Assembly: GCA_014190435.1 (NCBI GenBank)
Contig: BJGJ01000004.1
Span: forward strand, 1-64,000
Direction: 5' to 3'
DNA length: 64,000 nucleotides
Source of the DNA: Methylocystaceae bacterium
GTDB lineage: Bacteria > Pseudomonadota > Alphaproteobacteria > Rhizobiales > Beijerinckiaceae
The notes under the pieces are model-generated. The model saw only the letters and a list, made by a program, of their open reading frames with translations, was not told the DNA's origin and ran no database searches. Shown one piece after another: positions 3,322 to 9,539 of the stretch. Both the position numbers and the translations under genes were made by a program. Numbering within the stretch: position 1 is the stretch's first letter; each line of letters opens with the position of its first letter.

Positions 3322-4047
3322 TCAGACCAGATATTGTCCGCCATTGATGGTCAGTGTAGAGCCCGTAATGAAGCCCGCATCGTCAGCAGCCAAAAAGACG
3401 ACGGCGCGCGCAATTTCTTCCGGCTCCCCAAGTCTTCCAACAGCGATATGTGGTATGATGTGTTTGTCAAGCACATCTTGAGGAACAGCCTTGACCATCT
3501 CTGTCGCGATATACCCGGGCGCAATTGCATTAACCGTCACGCCCTTAGAAGCGCTTTCCTGCGCAAGAGCTTTCACGAAGCCAATATCGCCAGCTTTTGC
3601 AGCGGAATAATTTGTCTGCCCCGCCTGCCCCTTCTGACCATTAATCGAGGAGATAACAATAATACGGCCAAAACCACGGTCACGCATTCCGTTAATCACG
3701 GGACGTGTCACATTGAACAATGAATTAAGGTTCGTGCCGATAACAGCATTCCATTGCGCCAAGTCCATTTTATGAAATAATCGATCTTTTGTAATACCTG
3801 CATTATTGACAAGAATATCAACGGGACCAAGATCTTTTTCGATCGCAGCAATGCCTGCAGCGCAAGCTTCATAATCAGAAACATCAAATTTATAAACTGG
3901 AATACCGGTTGCTGTTTTAAATTTATTAGCAGCCTCGTCATTGCCGGCATAGGTTGCCGCCACCTTATAGCCTGCGGACTTAAGCGCTTTAGAAATGGAC
4001 TCGCCAATTCCGCGAGTTCCACCTGTTACAACTGCTATTCTTGCCAC
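3322..4047 (-). CDS. phaB: Acetoacetyl-CoA reductase (NADPH), PHB synthesis
   Basis: Reduces acetoacetyl-CoA to (R)-3-hydroxybutyryl-CoA, the monomer for polyhydroxybutyrate. It is a short-chain dehydrogenase: cofactor motif VTGGTRGIG at residues 7-15, NNAG near 89, catalytic Ser (VISSING) and Tyr/Lys (YSAAKAG), and the PhaB-typical C-terminus ITGSTLTINGGQYLV. An upstream in-frame ATG at 4092 would add 15 residues, but the GTG at 4047 gives the usual N-terminus (VARIAVVTGG) and has a strong AGGGGG ribosome binding site, so I use it (241 residues). It follows phaA by 86 bases on the same strand. Confidence 0.95.
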   Translation of the reverse strand: MARIAVVTGGTRGIGESISKALKSAGYKVAATYAGNDEAANKFKTATGIPVYKFDVSDYEACAAGIAAIEKDLGPVDILVNNAGITKDRLFHKMDLAQWNAVIGTNLNSLFNVTRPVINGMRDRGFGRIIVISSINGQKGQAGQTNYSAAKAGDIGFVKALAQESASKGVTVNAIAPGYIATEMVKAVPQDVLDKHIIPHIAVGRLGEPEEIARAVVFLAADDAGFITGSTLTINGGQYLV

Positions 4048-4133
4048 AATCCACCCCCTGATAGATATTTTACTAGAAAAAGCTGAGCGCAAGCTGCATA
4101 GCTTCTATTTTATCGGTTGAACTCAGGAAAAGC

Positions 4134-5309
4134 TTAACGCTCTACCGTAAGCGCGATACCCATACCGCCGCCTATGCAGAGCGTTGCCAAACCCTTTTTA
4201 GAGCCTCTACGTACCATCTCATGAAGTAACGTAGTAAGAACGCGTGCTCCAGAAGCACCGATAGGATGTCCAATTGCGATTGCGCCGCCATTAACATTCA
4301 CAATCGAAGGATCCCAACCCATGTCCTTGTTAACTGCTAGAGCCTGCGCAGCGAAAGCCTCGTTCGCTTCCACCAAATCCAAATCTGAAACTTTCCAGCC
4401 AGCCTTCTCTAATGCCTTGCGCGAAGCAGGAATTGGACCTGATCCCATTACTGCAGGATCAACGCCGGCTGTAGCCCAAGACGCAATACGAACGAGCGGC
4501 GTGAGACCGCGTTTTTTTGCCTCTGCTCCACTCATAATCACCAAAGCCGCGGCACCATCATTAATACCAGAAGCATTTGCAGCTGTTACAGTGCCATCCT
4601 TAGCAAAAGCGGGACGGAGTTTAGCAACGCTCTCAAGAGTGACGCCGTGCTTAATATATTCGTCGCCATCAACAACAATATTGCCTTTCTTTGTAGAAAT
4701 CGTGTAAGGAACGATCTCTTCTTTAAATTTACCAGCTTTCTGAGCCGCCTCAGCTTTGTTTTGCGAAGCTACGGCAAAGGCGTCTTGTTGTTCGCGCGTA
4801 ATTTGCCATTGCTTTGCGACATTCTCAGCCGTTAGACCCATGTGATAGTTGTTGAAAGCATCGGTTAAACCATCGACGATCATTGTATCGATGAACTTAA
4901 CTTCTCCCATCTTTGTTCCGAGCCGCAACTGGGAAGCATGCGTAGACAAAGACATCGACTCCTGACCGCCGGCGATGATCACCGCCGCGTCGCCGGCCTC
5001 TATTTGCTGTGCGGCAAGCGCGACAGCGCGTAATCCAGAACCACAGACCTGATTGATGCCAAAAGCTGTCTTGCTCTCAGGGATGCCTGCCCGTATCGAA
5101 GCCTGCCTGGCTGGATTTTGGCCTTGAGCGGCGGTCAATACCTGACCTAGAATAACTTCATCAACTGCGCTGGCATCAAGTTTAGCGCGGTCGAGGGCCG
5201 CCTTAATCGCGACAGCGCCGAGCTCGTGAGCCGGAACCGCGCCGAAGGCTCCGTTGAACGATCCAACGGCGGTGCGCGCCGCGGAAACGATCACGATGTC
5301 GGTCGTCAT
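4134..5309 (-). CDS. phaA: Acetyl-CoA acetyltransferase (beta-ketothiolase)
   Basis: Condenses two acetyl-CoA to acetoacetyl-CoA, the first step of PHB synthesis. The thiolase hallmarks are all present in 391 residues: nucleophilic Cys in [11 protein letters not shown] near residue 89, the His of [17 protein letters not shown] near 348, and the second Cys in [10 protein letters not shown] near 378. The ATG follows an AGGGAG ribosome binding site. It is the first gene of phaA-phaB and is transcribed away from phaR. The PHB synthase (phaC) is not in this window. Confidence 0.96.
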
Positions 5310-5561: not shown

Positions 5562-6176
5562 ATGGCCACTGAAAAAAAGCCAACGACCATCAAAAAATAC
5601 GCTAATCGACGGCTCTATGACACCGGAACAAGCACTTACGTGACGCTGGAGGACCTCGCCGCCATGGTCAAACGCGGAGAAGACTTTACTGTCTGCGATG
5701 CAAAAACGGGGGAGGACATAACGCGTCCCGTGCTTACTCAAATCATATTTGAGCAAGAGGGCAAAGATGGCCAAGGCCTCTTACCCATAGCTTTCTTGCG
5801 TCAGTTGATCCGTTTTTATGGCGACTCAATGCAAATGCTTGTTCCAAGCTATCTAGAGTTTTCAATCGACAAACTGACCAAAGAACAACAAAAATTTAGA
5901 GATCAATTCACAAGCGCGCTTGGCCCTGGTCCATTCACTGAGCCAACTCTGCAAGCATTTCAATCAATTGAAGAGCAAACTCGCAAAAATATGGCTGTAT
6001 TTCGCCAGGCGCTAACAATGTTCAATCCCTTTGGCGCAGCCTCCGATGGTGGGAGCGGTGATATCCCACCTCAAGAAGAGGAAGATAAGCGCGCTAGCGG
6101 CGCAGGAGATGTAGATGAACTCAAGCGCCAGCTTAATGAACTGAATAAAAAAATAGACAATCTGACGCGCACATAA
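5562..6176 (+). CDS. phaR: Polyhydroxyalkanoate synthesis repressor PhaR
   Basis: DNA-binding and PHB-binding regulator that represses phasin genes until nascent granules titrate it away. The N-terminal PHB accumulation regulator domain is clear (KKYANRRLYDTGTSTYV at residues 11-27, VCDAKTGEDITRPVLTQI), followed by the helical PHB-binding domain and an acidic, charged C-terminal tail ending in a short predicted coiled coil (VDELKRQLNELNKKI). 204 residues is normal. The ATG has a GAGG six bases upstream. It is divergent from phaA, with a candidate operator between them. Confidence 0.95.
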   Translation: MATEKKPTTIKKYANRRLYDTGTSTYVTLEDLAAMVKRGEDFTVCDAKTGEDITRPVLTQIIFEQEGKDGQGLLPIAFLRQLIRFYGDSMQMLVPSYLEFSIDKLTKEQQKFRDQFTSALGPGPFTEPTLQAFQSIEEQTRKNMAVFRQALTMFNPFGAASDGGSGDIPPQEEEDKRASGAGDVDELKRQLNELNKKIDNLTRT

Positions 6177-6305: not shown

Positions 6306-8396
6306 CTACTCAGCAGCAGATAAATTAGATAAGGGAAAAACGATTTTAATCAAAGTTCCTTGTTTCTTTTCGCTAACGATGGAAAAAGAGGCGGCCTTTT
6401 TTTCGATTAATTTTTCTGATTCAGCGAAATAAGCATTTCTACTTAATGTTTGCACAGGCTCAGTTGATTTACTGAGGGAGCCTAGCGCTGCGGTTACTTC
6501 TTCTTCGGACATGCCGACGCCAGTATCTTTAATTTTTATGCTTACTGTTTGATTATCAGAAACAGCTGTTGAGATGATAACTTGCCCCCCAAGAATATTG
6601 AATTCCACTGCATTAGCAAGAATTTTTAATAAAATTCTCCGTAATGAGGGAGCACATGACTGGATAAAAATAGGCTCCGCGGCAAGCGCTAGACGCATGA
6701 CAACTCGTTTCTGCCTGGCCTGAAACTGAATCTGCTCAACGCATTCAGCTAAAAGTTCGTTAATTTCTATATTTGAAAAAAAATGATCATCTGTAGCCGA
6801 TAGAGATTGAGATAGTTTGAAATAATCATCAATATACGAGAGAGACTGAATGATTGAGCTGCGTATATTTTTAATTTTTTTATGGTAGGATTCGGGATGA
6901 TAGCACTCGAACCTATCCATCGATAATAGTTCATTTTGAGCTAAAGTTGACTTGATTACAGCCAATAGACCTTTAGCCCGTTTTTCTAAAAATATATTAT
7001 CATCTAAATTTTTACTATTAGGTCTCGCTGCATTCAGCTGCTGAGTTTTACGCTTTAAAGACACATATATTTTGTCAAAAGTCTGTGGCTTACAACTCAA
7101 GAATACATCAAAACTTTCTGCATCATCATAGCCAATAAGCTCGAGAGCCTCTTTACCGCCTCCTCGAATCCGACCAATGGCTTGGATTAATACTTCACGT
7201 GTCTCTGGCTTGAAAAACGAAGCAAAATGACCCTCATCGCCACAGACCTTTTTGCCAATAAAAAGCCTTGAGAAGGGAGGTGTCATGTGTTCAATGCGGC
7301 CATCAGCTGAAATAATAACCGCTATTTCATTAGATAAGTTGGTTTCCGTATTTAGGACGAAATCATCGGCGCCGATCAATACGCCAGGTGCTTCTTCTGA
7401 TATGACAGGAATGCGATGCTGAGCTCGATCCATTTCGAAAACTTTTTTTAGGATAAAAATTATGGTCGCTGGAGCCCCATCCCATTCAAAGATCAAGGCG
7501 CTAGCCTCTAAATCTTCTCTAATAAATTTAGTTGTATTGATTAAATTTTCTAGATCATAAGCACCGAAGACTTTCGTAAGGCCGCCATCATTTATGAAAA
7601 CATCTTGATGGCTATAGCCAAACTCATTCAATAAAAATTTATTAGCAAAAAGCAGCTCTTTCCTACGTGAAATAATTACACCTATTGGTAAGCATTCTAG
7701 TAAATCCGTAAGATCGATCCCGCGCCTATCTTGCGATAAGCTTTTGTCAGCAGAGGGCTGTGAAGAGAAAAATGCATGCTTTTCGTCAATAGAATTTTCA
7801 TCTGTGAGCGCACGAGCAATTTCATTGAAAGCAGAGAGTTCAGCATCCGATAAAACGGTCTCCTGTGCAATTTTTTGGCGCTGTGATTTGGATAGAGGCC
7901 TTAAGGGAATTACATTTGCAGATGAGGAATCGAACGAGGTGAGGAGCGTTTGATGTGAAGCCTCTTGAGCTGTTACTTTCAGATCCTGCTGAATAAATGC
8001 TTGGTTAAGATGTAAAAGCCCAAAGCCACGCACCTTCGAAACTACTCCCTTGATATCAATAGTTCGAATGGCTCCTAAGGAAGAGGGGATCCATGCTCGC
8101 GCGCTAGAAAGTGGCCAGACAGCAACAATCCCCATCAATGAAGTTTGAGAATGTAGCGCTAGATTTAAAGGATAGTCTTGCGCCTGTATAAATTGACTTA
8201 ATGACTGGCCCAAGAGATTGGCTGAAGGCAGGCCCGTAATCATTTCCAATTCTGGACTTAATTTAGTTAAACGACCTGTTGCATCTGAATGCCAAATGAA
8301 GCGGACAGTTTCAACGCCATGACGATCGAGCAATTGGGCGCGCAAGGCCAGGTCTGCCGAGGACGGCTGGCCTAGATTAGTGCTTTCGACGATCAT
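6306..8396 (-). CDS. Multi-PAS histidine-kinase-like protein lacking H-box and G2 box (pseudokinase)
   Basis: A 696-residue cytoplasmic protein without membrane segments. PAS-like regions are visible near residues 28-110 (FIWHSDATGRL, GLPSANLLGQS), 235-310 (LPIGVIISRRKELLFANK) and 355-430 (AVIISADGRIEH). The C-terminal ATPase domain keeps the N box (KILANAVEF) and the G1 box (DTGVGMSEEE). However, where the SHEIRTPL phospho-acceptor would be, the region around residues 472-490 reads KGLLAVIKSTLAQN with no histidine, and the glycine-rich G2 loop is replaced by SRNAYFAESEKLIEKKAAS. It therefore probably cannot autophosphorylate in the normal way. It resembles PdhS/DivL-group kinases in layout. 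It is convergent with phaR and divergent from the phasin gene. Confidence 0.8.
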   Translation of the reverse strand: MIVESTNLGQPSSADLALRAQLLDRHGVETVRFIWHSDATGRLTKLSPELEMITGLPSANLLGQSLSQFIQAQDYPLNLALHSQTSLMGIVAVWPLSSARAWIPSSLGAIRTIDIKGVVSKVRGFGLLHLNQAFIQQDLKVTAQEASHQTLLTSFDSSSANVIPLRPLSKSQRQKIAQETVLSDAELSAFNEIARALTDENSIDEKHAFFSSQPSADKSLSQDRRGIDLTDLLECLPIGVIISRRKELLFANKFLLNEFGYSHQDVFINDGGLTKVFGAYDLENLINTTKFIREDLEASALIFEWDGAPATIIFILKKVFEMDRAQHRIPVISEEAPGVLIGADDFVLNTETNLSNEIAVIISADGRIEHMTPPFSRLFIGKKVCGDEGHFASFFKPETREVLIQAIGRIRGGGKEALELIGYDDAESFDVFLSCKPQTFDKIYVSLKRKTQQLNAARPNSKNLDDNIFLEKRAKGLLAVIKSTLAQNELLSMDRFECYHPESYHKKIKNIRSSIIQSLSYIDDYFKLSQSLSATDDHFFSNIEINELLAECVEQIQFQARQKRVVMRLALAAEPIFIQSCAPSLRRILLKILANAVEFNILGGQVIISTAVSDNQTVSIKIKDTGVGMSEEEVTAALGSLSKSTEPVQTLSRNAYFAESEKLIEKKAASFSIVSEKKQGTLIKIVFPLSNLSAAE

Positions 8397-8533: not shown

Positions 8534-8570
8534 TTTATTGCGGCGCACAAATTTTGTTGCAGTGCAATAA
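8534..8570. promoter_or_regulatory. Tandem candidate PhaR operators
   Basis: Two near-identical TGC-rich elements, TTATTGCGGCGCACAA (from 8535) and TTGTTGCAGTGCAATAA (from 8554), repeat with an exact 19-base offset. The second is a near-perfect inverted repeat (TTGC-AGT-GCAA). A third copy precedes phaR. The placement before a phasin gene fits PhaR control; binding is inferred. Confidence 0.55.
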
Positions 8571-8585: not shown

Positions 8586-8674
8586 TCTGCTAGCGCCCTG
8601 TGTTGATTGAGAAAAACTTTCTTTATTGGGCCATCACAGATACTATCACTCTAAATAAAATAGGATTGTTGACA

Positions 8675-9034
8675 ATGGCTGATCCAATATATCAGGTGCC
8701 AAACGAAGTCCGTGACTTTGCTGAGAAAAGTGTTGAACAAGCACGCAAGGCCTTTGAAGGCTTCGCGGGGGCGGCGCACAAGGCCCTTCACTCTTCAAGC
8801 GATTTGCCTTTAGTGCCTTCCGAAGCCAAGGATATGGGCGCAAAAGCATTTTCCTATGCAGAAGCAAATGTGAATGCTGCATTCGATCTCGCGCAAAAAC
8901 TTGTCCACGCCAAAGATCCTCAGGAAGTCTTTCAACTGCAATCAGAATTCGTCAAAACCCAACTCAACTCTATTCAAGAACAAACAAAAGAATTAGGTGC
9001 CGCCTTTCAGCGTGTCACAACAAAAAAAACTTAA
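8675..9034 (+). CDS. Phasin family protein
   Basis: Small amphipathic protein that coats PHB granules. The 119-residue sequence is alanine-rich and almost wholly helical, with the phasin patterns VRDFAEKSVEQARKAFEGF near residues 11-29, FDLAQKLVHAKDPQEVFQLQ near 69-88 and QTKELG near the end. An upstream GTG at 8600 is in frame but the ATG at 8675 has AGGA nine bases before it and gives the standard family N-terminus. It lies behind the tandem candidate PhaR sites, as expected for a granule protein under PhaR control. Confidence 0.92.
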   Translation: MADPIYQVPNEVRDFAEKSVEQARKAFEGFAGAAHKALHSSSDLPLVPSEAKDMGAKAFSYAEANVNAAFDLAQKLVHAKDPQEVFQLQSEFVKTQLNSIQEQTKELGAAFQRVTTKKT

Positions 9035-9059: not shown

Positions 9060-9539
9060 ATGACCCAGCAGACCCCGTGCGATGAAAAGGGCGGCAAAGC
9101 GTCAAACTCTAAACGACCGGATCCGGCAGTAGAAACACTCGAAGAAACCTTAAATGCCGCAGCAGAGATAGTGCGCGCACACATTGAAGCTGCAACTAAA
9201 GGCGCGTCACTGTCAGAAGCCAAATTAATGGCTTTACAATCTAAACTTCCCTGTCCAACAGAAGGAATTGAGACGCAGTCCCATGTAGCGCCCACACAAT
9301 TTAATCTTTTTCCCATAACATACAAATTATATGAACATTGGAATGAAAATATTATATCAACACTTGAACAGCTTCAGAGAACGACTAGGGCGCAAAACAT
9401 AGAAGAAGTCCTAAACCAACATTCTAACTTCACCGCTCAAAATTTAGAGCGATTTTATCGTCAATCTTTAGAACTCATTTCTCTTACTCAAAAGAACTTT
9501 TTAGGCTCAATGCTGAGAACAGTCTTATTGGGTCTTTAG
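9060..9539 (+). CDS. Second phasin-like protein
   Basis: A 159-residue protein 25 bases downstream of the first phasin and in the same orientation. It is mostly helical and alanine-rich at the start (ETLNAAAEIVRAHIEAATKG), and its C-terminal part repeats the phasin arrangement: YKLYEHWNENIISTLEQLQ, then TTRAQNIEEVLNQHSNF, which recalls the KDPQEVFQLQ segment of its neighbour, and QNLERFYRQSLEL. I infer a granule-associated phasin (PHB_granule type); similarity is weaker than for the first gene. The N-terminal 20 residues are polar and probably disordered. Confidence 0.65.
   Translation: MTQQTPCDEKGGKASNSKRPDPAVETLEETLNAAAEIVRAHIEAATKGASLSEAKLMALQSKLPCPTEGIETQSHVAPTQFNLFPITYKLYEHWNENIISTLEQLQRTTRAQNIEEVLNQHSNFTAQNLERFYRQSLELISLTQKNFLGSMLRTVLLGL

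Follow-up and report, generated by a model that had tools for sequence, protein, structure and literature searches.

A PdhS/CbrA-type kinase orthologue without its H-box histidine and ATP lid, located between phaR and the phasin genes of a Methylocystaceae bacterium

Results

A pseudokinase gene lies between phaR and two phasin genes

The window, a stretch of 64,000 nucleotides from contig BJGJ01000004.1, belongs to a genome that is 66% complete (G000). It carries a set of PHB genes in which an open reading frame on the minus strand is enclosed by phaR on one side and two phasin genes on the other, and this frame is transcribed away from the first phasin (Table 1). A preliminary description of the locus had placed a multi-PAS pseudokinase at this point, and both the frame, which is open over its 696 codons, and its position between phaR and the phasins were confirmed. 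The first neighbour is presumably a phasin, as named in that description, and we also take the gene that follows it to be phasin-like; the names phaA and phaB are likewise our assumption from the sequences.

Table 1. Features of the locus, with positions in the window
Feature	Position	Strand	Evidence
PdhS/CbrA-type pseudo-histidine kinase (predicted), 696 aa, ATG start	6306..8396	-	ORF, NF041593 E=1.5e-39, synteny and alignment
N-terminal PAS-like domain PAS-A, residues 1-135	7992..8396	-	weak PAS matches; boundary set by the authors
Second PAS-like region, residues 229-345	7362..7712	-	Pfam PAS_8 at 231-265, E=0.0022, below cut-off
Linker or third PAS-like region, residues 346-455	7032..7361	-	alignment only; boundary set by the authors
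Degenerate DHp, residues 456-540	6777..7031	-	4/27 conserved positions kept; omega 0.46 vs 0.07
Codon 475 (Lys) at the place of the phospho-acceptor His	6972..6974	-	alignment
Degenerate CA (ATPase) domain, residues 541-692	6321..6776	-	Pfam HATPase_c; omega 0.32 vs 0.15
N-box LLKILANAVEFN, kept	6597..6632	-	alignment
G1 box DTGVGM, kept	6510..6527	-	alignment
Place of the G2 box: LSRNAYFAESEKLIE instead of xGTGLGLPLTKALIE	6402..6446	-	alignment
PhaR-like box 1, TGCGGCGCA	8539..8547	+	motif scan
PhaR-like box 2, TGCAGTGCA, 19 bases from box 1	8558..8566	+	motif scan
Phasin (presumed), divergent neighbour	8675..9034	+	frame opens at 8600, likely ATG 8675
Second phasin-like gene (presumed), fast-evolving	9060..9539	+	ORF and comparison
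phaR (PHB_acc, PF05233)	5562..6176	+	Pfam
phaA (thiolase; presumed)	4134..5309	-	ORF; name from sequence
phaB (acetoacetyl-CoA reductase; presumed)	3322..4092	-	ORF; name from sequence

The best NCBIfam match of the protein was the PdhS model (135.7 bits, residues 187-690). The cut-off of this model, 2000 bits, was passed in none of 12 same-genus genomes and was missed also by the intact orthologue of G010 (474.8 bits), intact same-genus orthologues scoring between 303 and 475 bits. HATPase_c was found above its Pfam cut-off (34.5 versus 26.4 bits, residues 584-690) and HisKA (PF00512) gave no Pfam match at E<=1. The multi-PAS build described earlier is retained here as PAS-like regions, all of the Pfam matches behind it being sub-threshold (PAS_8, E=0.0022; PAS_9, E=0.025; PAS, E=0.051).

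The gene is orthologous to large DivK kinases

Searches in the window genome and 60 relatives returned full-length-like matches, at 54-61% identity, only in G008, G015 and G020; the best matches in the other relatives reached about 20-38% identity and G039 had none. A wider contig search gave one close relative, which corresponds to G020, and two weak kinase matches. When loci were compared by position, 34 genomes of the same genus had a readable phasin-side kinase, while G012, G013 and G034 gave weak matches, their phasin-side orthologue being missing or unassembled. Kinase and phasin are divergent in every same-genus locus whose sequence extends as far as the phasin (33 loci), mostly with aroE beyond; the contig of G008 ends before the phasin. 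An order-wide set was composed of 74 of the 192 genomes with a match, picked by hand and for the most part high-scoring and single representatives of their genus, to which 20 further genomes were added. Outside the genus, a phasin divergent from the kinase, defined as a phasin-profile match that lies upstream of the kinase in the retrieved sequence and on the opposite strand (the nearest match being up to about 1.1 kb away), was present in 82 of the 94 genomes (63/74 and 19/20); at least G060 and G229, among the 11 of 74 that lack it, are cut by contig ends. Because of this synteny and the profile scores, the window gene is, as judged by comparison, orthologous to the large PdhS/CbrA-type DivK kinases, and the assignment to the PdhS-type family is upheld.

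The phaR side of the locus has another distribution. In the stretches fetched, phaR stands beside the kinase in all four copies without the catalytic histidine (see below) versus one of 30 active copies (G003, at about 1.1 kb); in the other same-genus genomes it is on another contig or far off. This side of the neighbourhood, common to the dead copies and a single active copy, is consequently recent.

The phospho-acceptor histidine and the ATP lid are lost in four genomes

In the alignment with orthologues, the H-box FLARVSHEIRTP is aligned to FLEKRAKGLLAV, with H changed to K at residue 475, and SRNAYFAESEKLIE stands where the orthologues have the G2 motif GTGLGLPLTKALIE. The preliminary description, which had reported N and G1 boxes without a phospho-acceptor histidine or G2 loop, was therefore correct on all these motifs. 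The histidine and the G2 lid are kept in 30 of the 34 same-genus copies, the histidine at the same place in every one of the 30, and lost in G000, G008, G015 and G020. These four carry K or G at the His position, and their G2 glycines have given way to R-N-I/A-Y; all keep the N-box Asn and the G1 Asp, although G1 is eroded to DTGVSVS in G008. For the relatives, the residue assigned to the His position varies with the alignment, since G015 and G020 carry a short deletion immediately ahead of this position and four residues are inserted behind it in G008; the H-box region of G000 aligns with the active copies free of gaps. Since the same loss is present in three further genomes with open frames at 54-61% identity, and the histidine in 30/30 others, chance and frameshift are unlikely.

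The erosion differs between the two halves of the core. The DHp has 27 positions with at least 95% conservation among 103 relatives; of these the dead copies keep from four to seven, the window copy four, and of 39 such positions in the CA domain the dead copies keep 18-20. The earlier statement that the flanking spacing is otherwise preserved can be accepted for the CA domain and does not extend to the DHp. Predicted structures had low confidence (mean pLDDT 44.7 for the core and 40.8 for the first PAS domain); they were computed with alignments of the window and L052 only, and no conclusion is drawn from the models. Because intact orthologues stand against an eroded window copy, the previous proposal, that a kinase of conventional fold has lost catalysis and does not represent a different fold, is supported at the level of prediction. 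Aligned to its relatives, the predicted protein is shown to be a kinase orthologue in which the phospho-acceptor histidine and the ATP lid are absent and the DivK-docking face is mostly gone, and we infer that it would be catalytically dead and work without phosphotransfer.

Across the wider order, the histidine was present in 102 of 107 cores, G048 being the only one without it besides the four dead copies. With the set extended to 127 cores, 122 had the histidine and 115 the three G2 glycines, a share of G2 loss that is no population estimate because five of the added genomes were chosen for the G2 loss of their congener G070. G085 and G216 differ at the first G2 glycine only. The G048 kinase (L072:7989-12482) carries an H-to-L change in the H-box with an intact lid and an otherwise well-kept core; its congeners G094 and G126 have the histidine. 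In G017 (L061), the gene of an active-type kinase seems to be split into two overlapping frames in the assembly; on account of this split, G017 enters neither the kinase tree nor the omega tests nor the alignments of 107 and 127 rows, and it is included in the aroE tree.

A second lineage has degraded G2 glycines and an intact H-box

In genus g38, whose genomes measure about 7-9 Mb, the G2 glycines are degraded in all six members (G070, G141, G168, G193, G214 and G233); five have lost the three glycines and G233 keeps the middle one. These orthologues (L156; L195-L199) resemble the window copy in the phasin-linked locus plan and the degraded G2, but differ from it in that their H-box and DivK-docking residues are intact, so a phosphotransfer or phosphatase function could survive. 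They are predicted to be kinase-dead and perhaps phosphatase-only.

The dead copies remain under selection, strongest on the first PAS domain

The four dead copies form one clade (SH-aLRT 100) on a stem of 2.09 changes per column in the kinase tree. G003 was placed as their sister, a placement that joins long branches and was flagged by the tree tool's warning; the aroE tree comprised 30 rows, without G008. Omega (dN/dS) was pooled over the six clade pairs, whose dS ranges from 0.37 to 0.97, with bootstrapping over columns, and eight active same-genus pairs served as reference; the pairs share genomes and are thus not independent. PAS-A gave the lowest value of the protein, 0.25 (0.16-0.35) in the clade versus 0.25 in the active pairs, a constraint that is ordinary and not extreme; of the 31 PAS-A positions that are conserved across 29 active relatives, only 17 persist throughout the dead clade. 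The clade and active values were 0.33 and 0.42 for the linker, 0.36 and 0.22 for PAS-B, and 0.41 and 0.40 for PAS-C. The CA domain reached 0.32 (0.23-0.43) versus 0.15 (0.12-0.21), and DHp was the least constrained domain of the clade with 0.46 (0.29-0.67) versus 0.07 (0.04-0.10). These estimates show purifying selection acting within the clade on every domain, most on the first PAS domain. We read the history of the gene as one probable burst of change followed by renewed selection, strongest on that domain.

A gene in late decay, its function gone, in a shrinking genome would also leave a long stem, a relaxed DHp and the loss of G1 seen in G008, and the genome of G008 is indeed small (2.1 Mb at 98% completeness, versus 3.2-5.3 Mb in same-genus genomes at least 97% complete; the three other clade genomes are only 66-77% complete). 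We nevertheless consider this unlikely, given that the four frames are open at such dS, with no premature stop in three copies and an end a few residues early at the extreme C-terminus in G015, while a simple neutral simulation predicts a mean of 13-23 stops in frame (minimum of five in 300 runs), and that the upper bootstrap limits of omega lie at 0.35-0.67 across the six regions. A plain pseudogene was rejected on the open frames of the four copies and dN/dS values of 0.25-0.46 in every domain.

Within the clade, the second phasin-like gene matches the pseudokinase in its rate of evolution (omega 0.36-0.45, 59-78% identity), so raised omega is not unique to the latter; the genes neighbouring these two are mostly 88-97% identical. 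PmoA/AmoA (PF02461) had no match in the same-genus genomes G000, G008, G015, G020 and G003, two of which are 98-99% complete, and a match was present in G012, G013 and G029. These five genomes without a match may form a branch of a methanotroph genus that is not itself methanotrophic and in part has small genomes.

The protein is probably not a DivL orthologue

DivL of Caulobacter is reported to keep the kinase fold with Tyr550, and mutation of its R553, T557, Y562 or H579 weakens DivK binding (Childers et al. 2014, PMC4211667). At the four corresponding positions, the 103 relatives have R (in 103), N (99), F (102) and Y (102). In the dead clade these positions read L/Q, K/E/Q, Q and Y/H/N/N, the alignment of G008 being less sure there. 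The first three are changed in all four copies; at the fourth, Y is kept only in G000 (three of four positions being changed in the window copy), H is found in G008, as in DivL itself, and N in G015 and G020. DivL and the window protein share a multi-PAS histidine-kinase fold without phospho-acceptor histidine and the same signalling neighbourhood; in contrast to the window protein, DivL has a Tyr and keeps its DivK-docking face (PMC4211667), and it is apparently a different gene.

The DivL-like scaffold suggested in the preliminary description was not supported, since the histidine is replaced by Lys or Gly and not by Tyr, three docking residues are gone in the four copies, and the DHp is the least constrained domain. 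A link to the cell cycle is plausible by descent only, the intact orthologues being DivK kinases. DivL orthology was rejected on the Lys/Gly, the mostly lost docking residues and a separate DivL-type gene in G008. This gene has tsaE- and ahcY-like genes next to it and encodes a protein of 862 aa that carries VSYELRSPL and whose lid is intact. We take this protein to be DivL from its Tyr and its neighbour genes. Matches of DivL-like length and score occur in G015 and G020, and no DivL-type gene is listed in the window genome (66% complete).

DivK was read in G000, G008 and G015, and ChpT was found in the four clade genomes. G008 has a 778-aa kinase with intact motifs, presumably PleC-like, and kinases of this type (775-779 aa) were found in G000, G008 and G020; none is listed for G015. 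PleD had no match above cut-off in the four genomes, a loss that is not tied to the pseudokinase because PleD is also missing in G001 and G006, whose kinase is intact. G003 has a 504-aa PdhS/DivJ-like kinase (181 bits with the PdhS model), and no counterpart of such score was found in the four.

As a rival reading, the protein could be a DivL-like pseudokinase that binds DivK~P through its DHp and relays the state to CckA. Descent from DivK kinases, a multi-domain build like that of DivL, the presence of ChpT in four genomes and of DivK in three, and the Y and H at the fourth docking position of G000 and G008 would agree with it. With the docking positions otherwise altered from those of the relatives, the DHp so poorly constrained and a DivL-type gene already present in G008, we regard it as improbable. 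Still harder to accept is an atypical enzyme that binds ATP through N and G1 or acts as a histidine-independent phosphatase: the N-box Asn and G1 Asp are kept in 4/4, but G1 has become DTGVSVS in G008, the G2 and H-boxes are gone in 4/4 and the docking face is mostly lost. Misplaced motifs or an error of sequencing or assembly, for which the incompleteness of the window MAG would speak, can be dismissed almost entirely, given that three further assemblies show this state in open frames and that the H-box region of G000 aligns free of gaps, and a frameshift was rejected on the open frames and shared loss in G008, G015 and G020.

Tandem PhaR-like boxes accompany the divergent phasin

In Sinorhizobium meliloti, the PhaR motif is given with the core YGCRNYGCR and occurs twice at phaP1, the listed start coordinates differing by 18 bases (PMC12542648). 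In the window, two tandem PhaR-like boxes lie between the pseudokinase and the phasin (Table 1). Paired TGCRNYGCA boxes 16-20 apart were present in 28 of the 33 same-genus upstream regions (absent in five) and in 0/200 shuffles of each. Outside the genus, the strict pair was found in 18 of 63 regions, with 0.01 expected, and was absent from 45; allowing one mismatch hardly changed this figure (19/63, 0.12 expected), and at least one perfect box was present in 37/63 (4.8 expected). Single boxes are common in the window (56 versus 42 expected) and occurred in 31 of the 33 same-genus regions versus 14.3 expected; since their count is weak evidence, we relied on the paired spacing. Among the order-wide survey loci (L115-L183 and L195-L214), PhaR-like boxes are enriched between kinase and phasin in these 63. 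The operator region that the preliminary description had assigned jointly to the pseudokinase and the phasin thus gains support as a putative PhaR site, and the pseudokinase is perhaps PhaR-controlled.

Discussion

CbrA of S. meliloti is a DivK kinase (PMC11500502), and CbrA, PdhS1 of Agrobacterium and PdhS of Brucella have been grouped as large soluble PdhS-type DivK kinases (PMC3577659). The window protein is like them in locus plan, PdhS profile, N-terminal sensor regions and C-terminal HATPase; unlike them, it has neither the H-box histidine nor the G2 lid, has mostly lost the docking residues and is 696 aa long versus about 720-1740 aa in active orthologues. In Brucella PdhS, the N-terminal part binds the fumarase FumC and the C-terminal part binds DivK (PMC2957392), and the pattern of constraint in the dead clade fits the loss of the DivK side and the retention of the sensor side.

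Taken jointly, these observations are probably best explained by a retained PdhS/CbrA orthologue that is dead as a kinase and serves as a PAS-based sensing or binding protein, an explanation that we favour without regarding it as secure. Its N-terminal half would continue the N-terminal job of PdhS, recruiting a metabolic partner as fumarase is recruited in Brucella, and its C-terminal half would survive mainly as an oligomerising fold. Putative PhaR binding at the shared operator would couple expression of the pseudokinase and the phasin to the level of PHB, and the DivK input of the lineage would have passed to a remaining PleC-like kinase. That the ligand or partner is a metabolic one may be proposed with moderate confidence.

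PdhS/CbrA kinases, pseudokinases, PhaR boxes and the adjacency of cbrA and phaP1 are already known, the latter because cbrA is adjacent to SMc00777 (PMC11500502) and SMc00777 is phaP1 (PMC12542648). The window copy is a variant of a known kinase, since its orthologues are intact nearly everywhere. In the accessible parts of open-licence PMC papers, neither a pseudokinase of the PdhS/CbrA type nor an action of PhaR on cbrA or pdhS was found to be described. No open-licence PMC paper joining PdhS, phasin and histidine kinase was found, and nothing on the host-group clade was present among the literature matches listed. To our knowledge, the signal of CbrA/PdhS kinases is not settled. The S. meliloti PhaR study mentions neither cbrA nor SMc00776 (PMC12542648).

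CbrA/PdhS kinases stand at the head of the cell-cycle circuit formed by DivK, CckA and CtrA (PMC11500502). A broader reading, which we put forward tentatively and which may well prove wrong, is that an order-wide PdhS/CbrA kinase is wired to carbon storage and has been disabled independently at least twice at this locus. If so, a PhaR-bound operator shared by kinase and phasin would let the PHB level set the amount of a cell-cycle kinase; the routes of disabling would differ, with the whole core affected here and the sensor end kept, and the ATP lid only in g38; and selection would keep partner binding and a sensing function linked to PHB or metabolism, but not phosphorylation.

The conserved phasin linkage and the PhaR-like boxes constitute a testable link between PHB storage and the cell cycle. 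An eroded kinase core combined with a first PAS domain as constrained as in active kinases amounts to a natural separation-of-function experiment, and the clade points to the part of the protein that may carry a non-kinase job. The working relatives of this retired sensor kinase help to time the cell cycle, and here its sensor end has been kept beside the genes of PHB storage.
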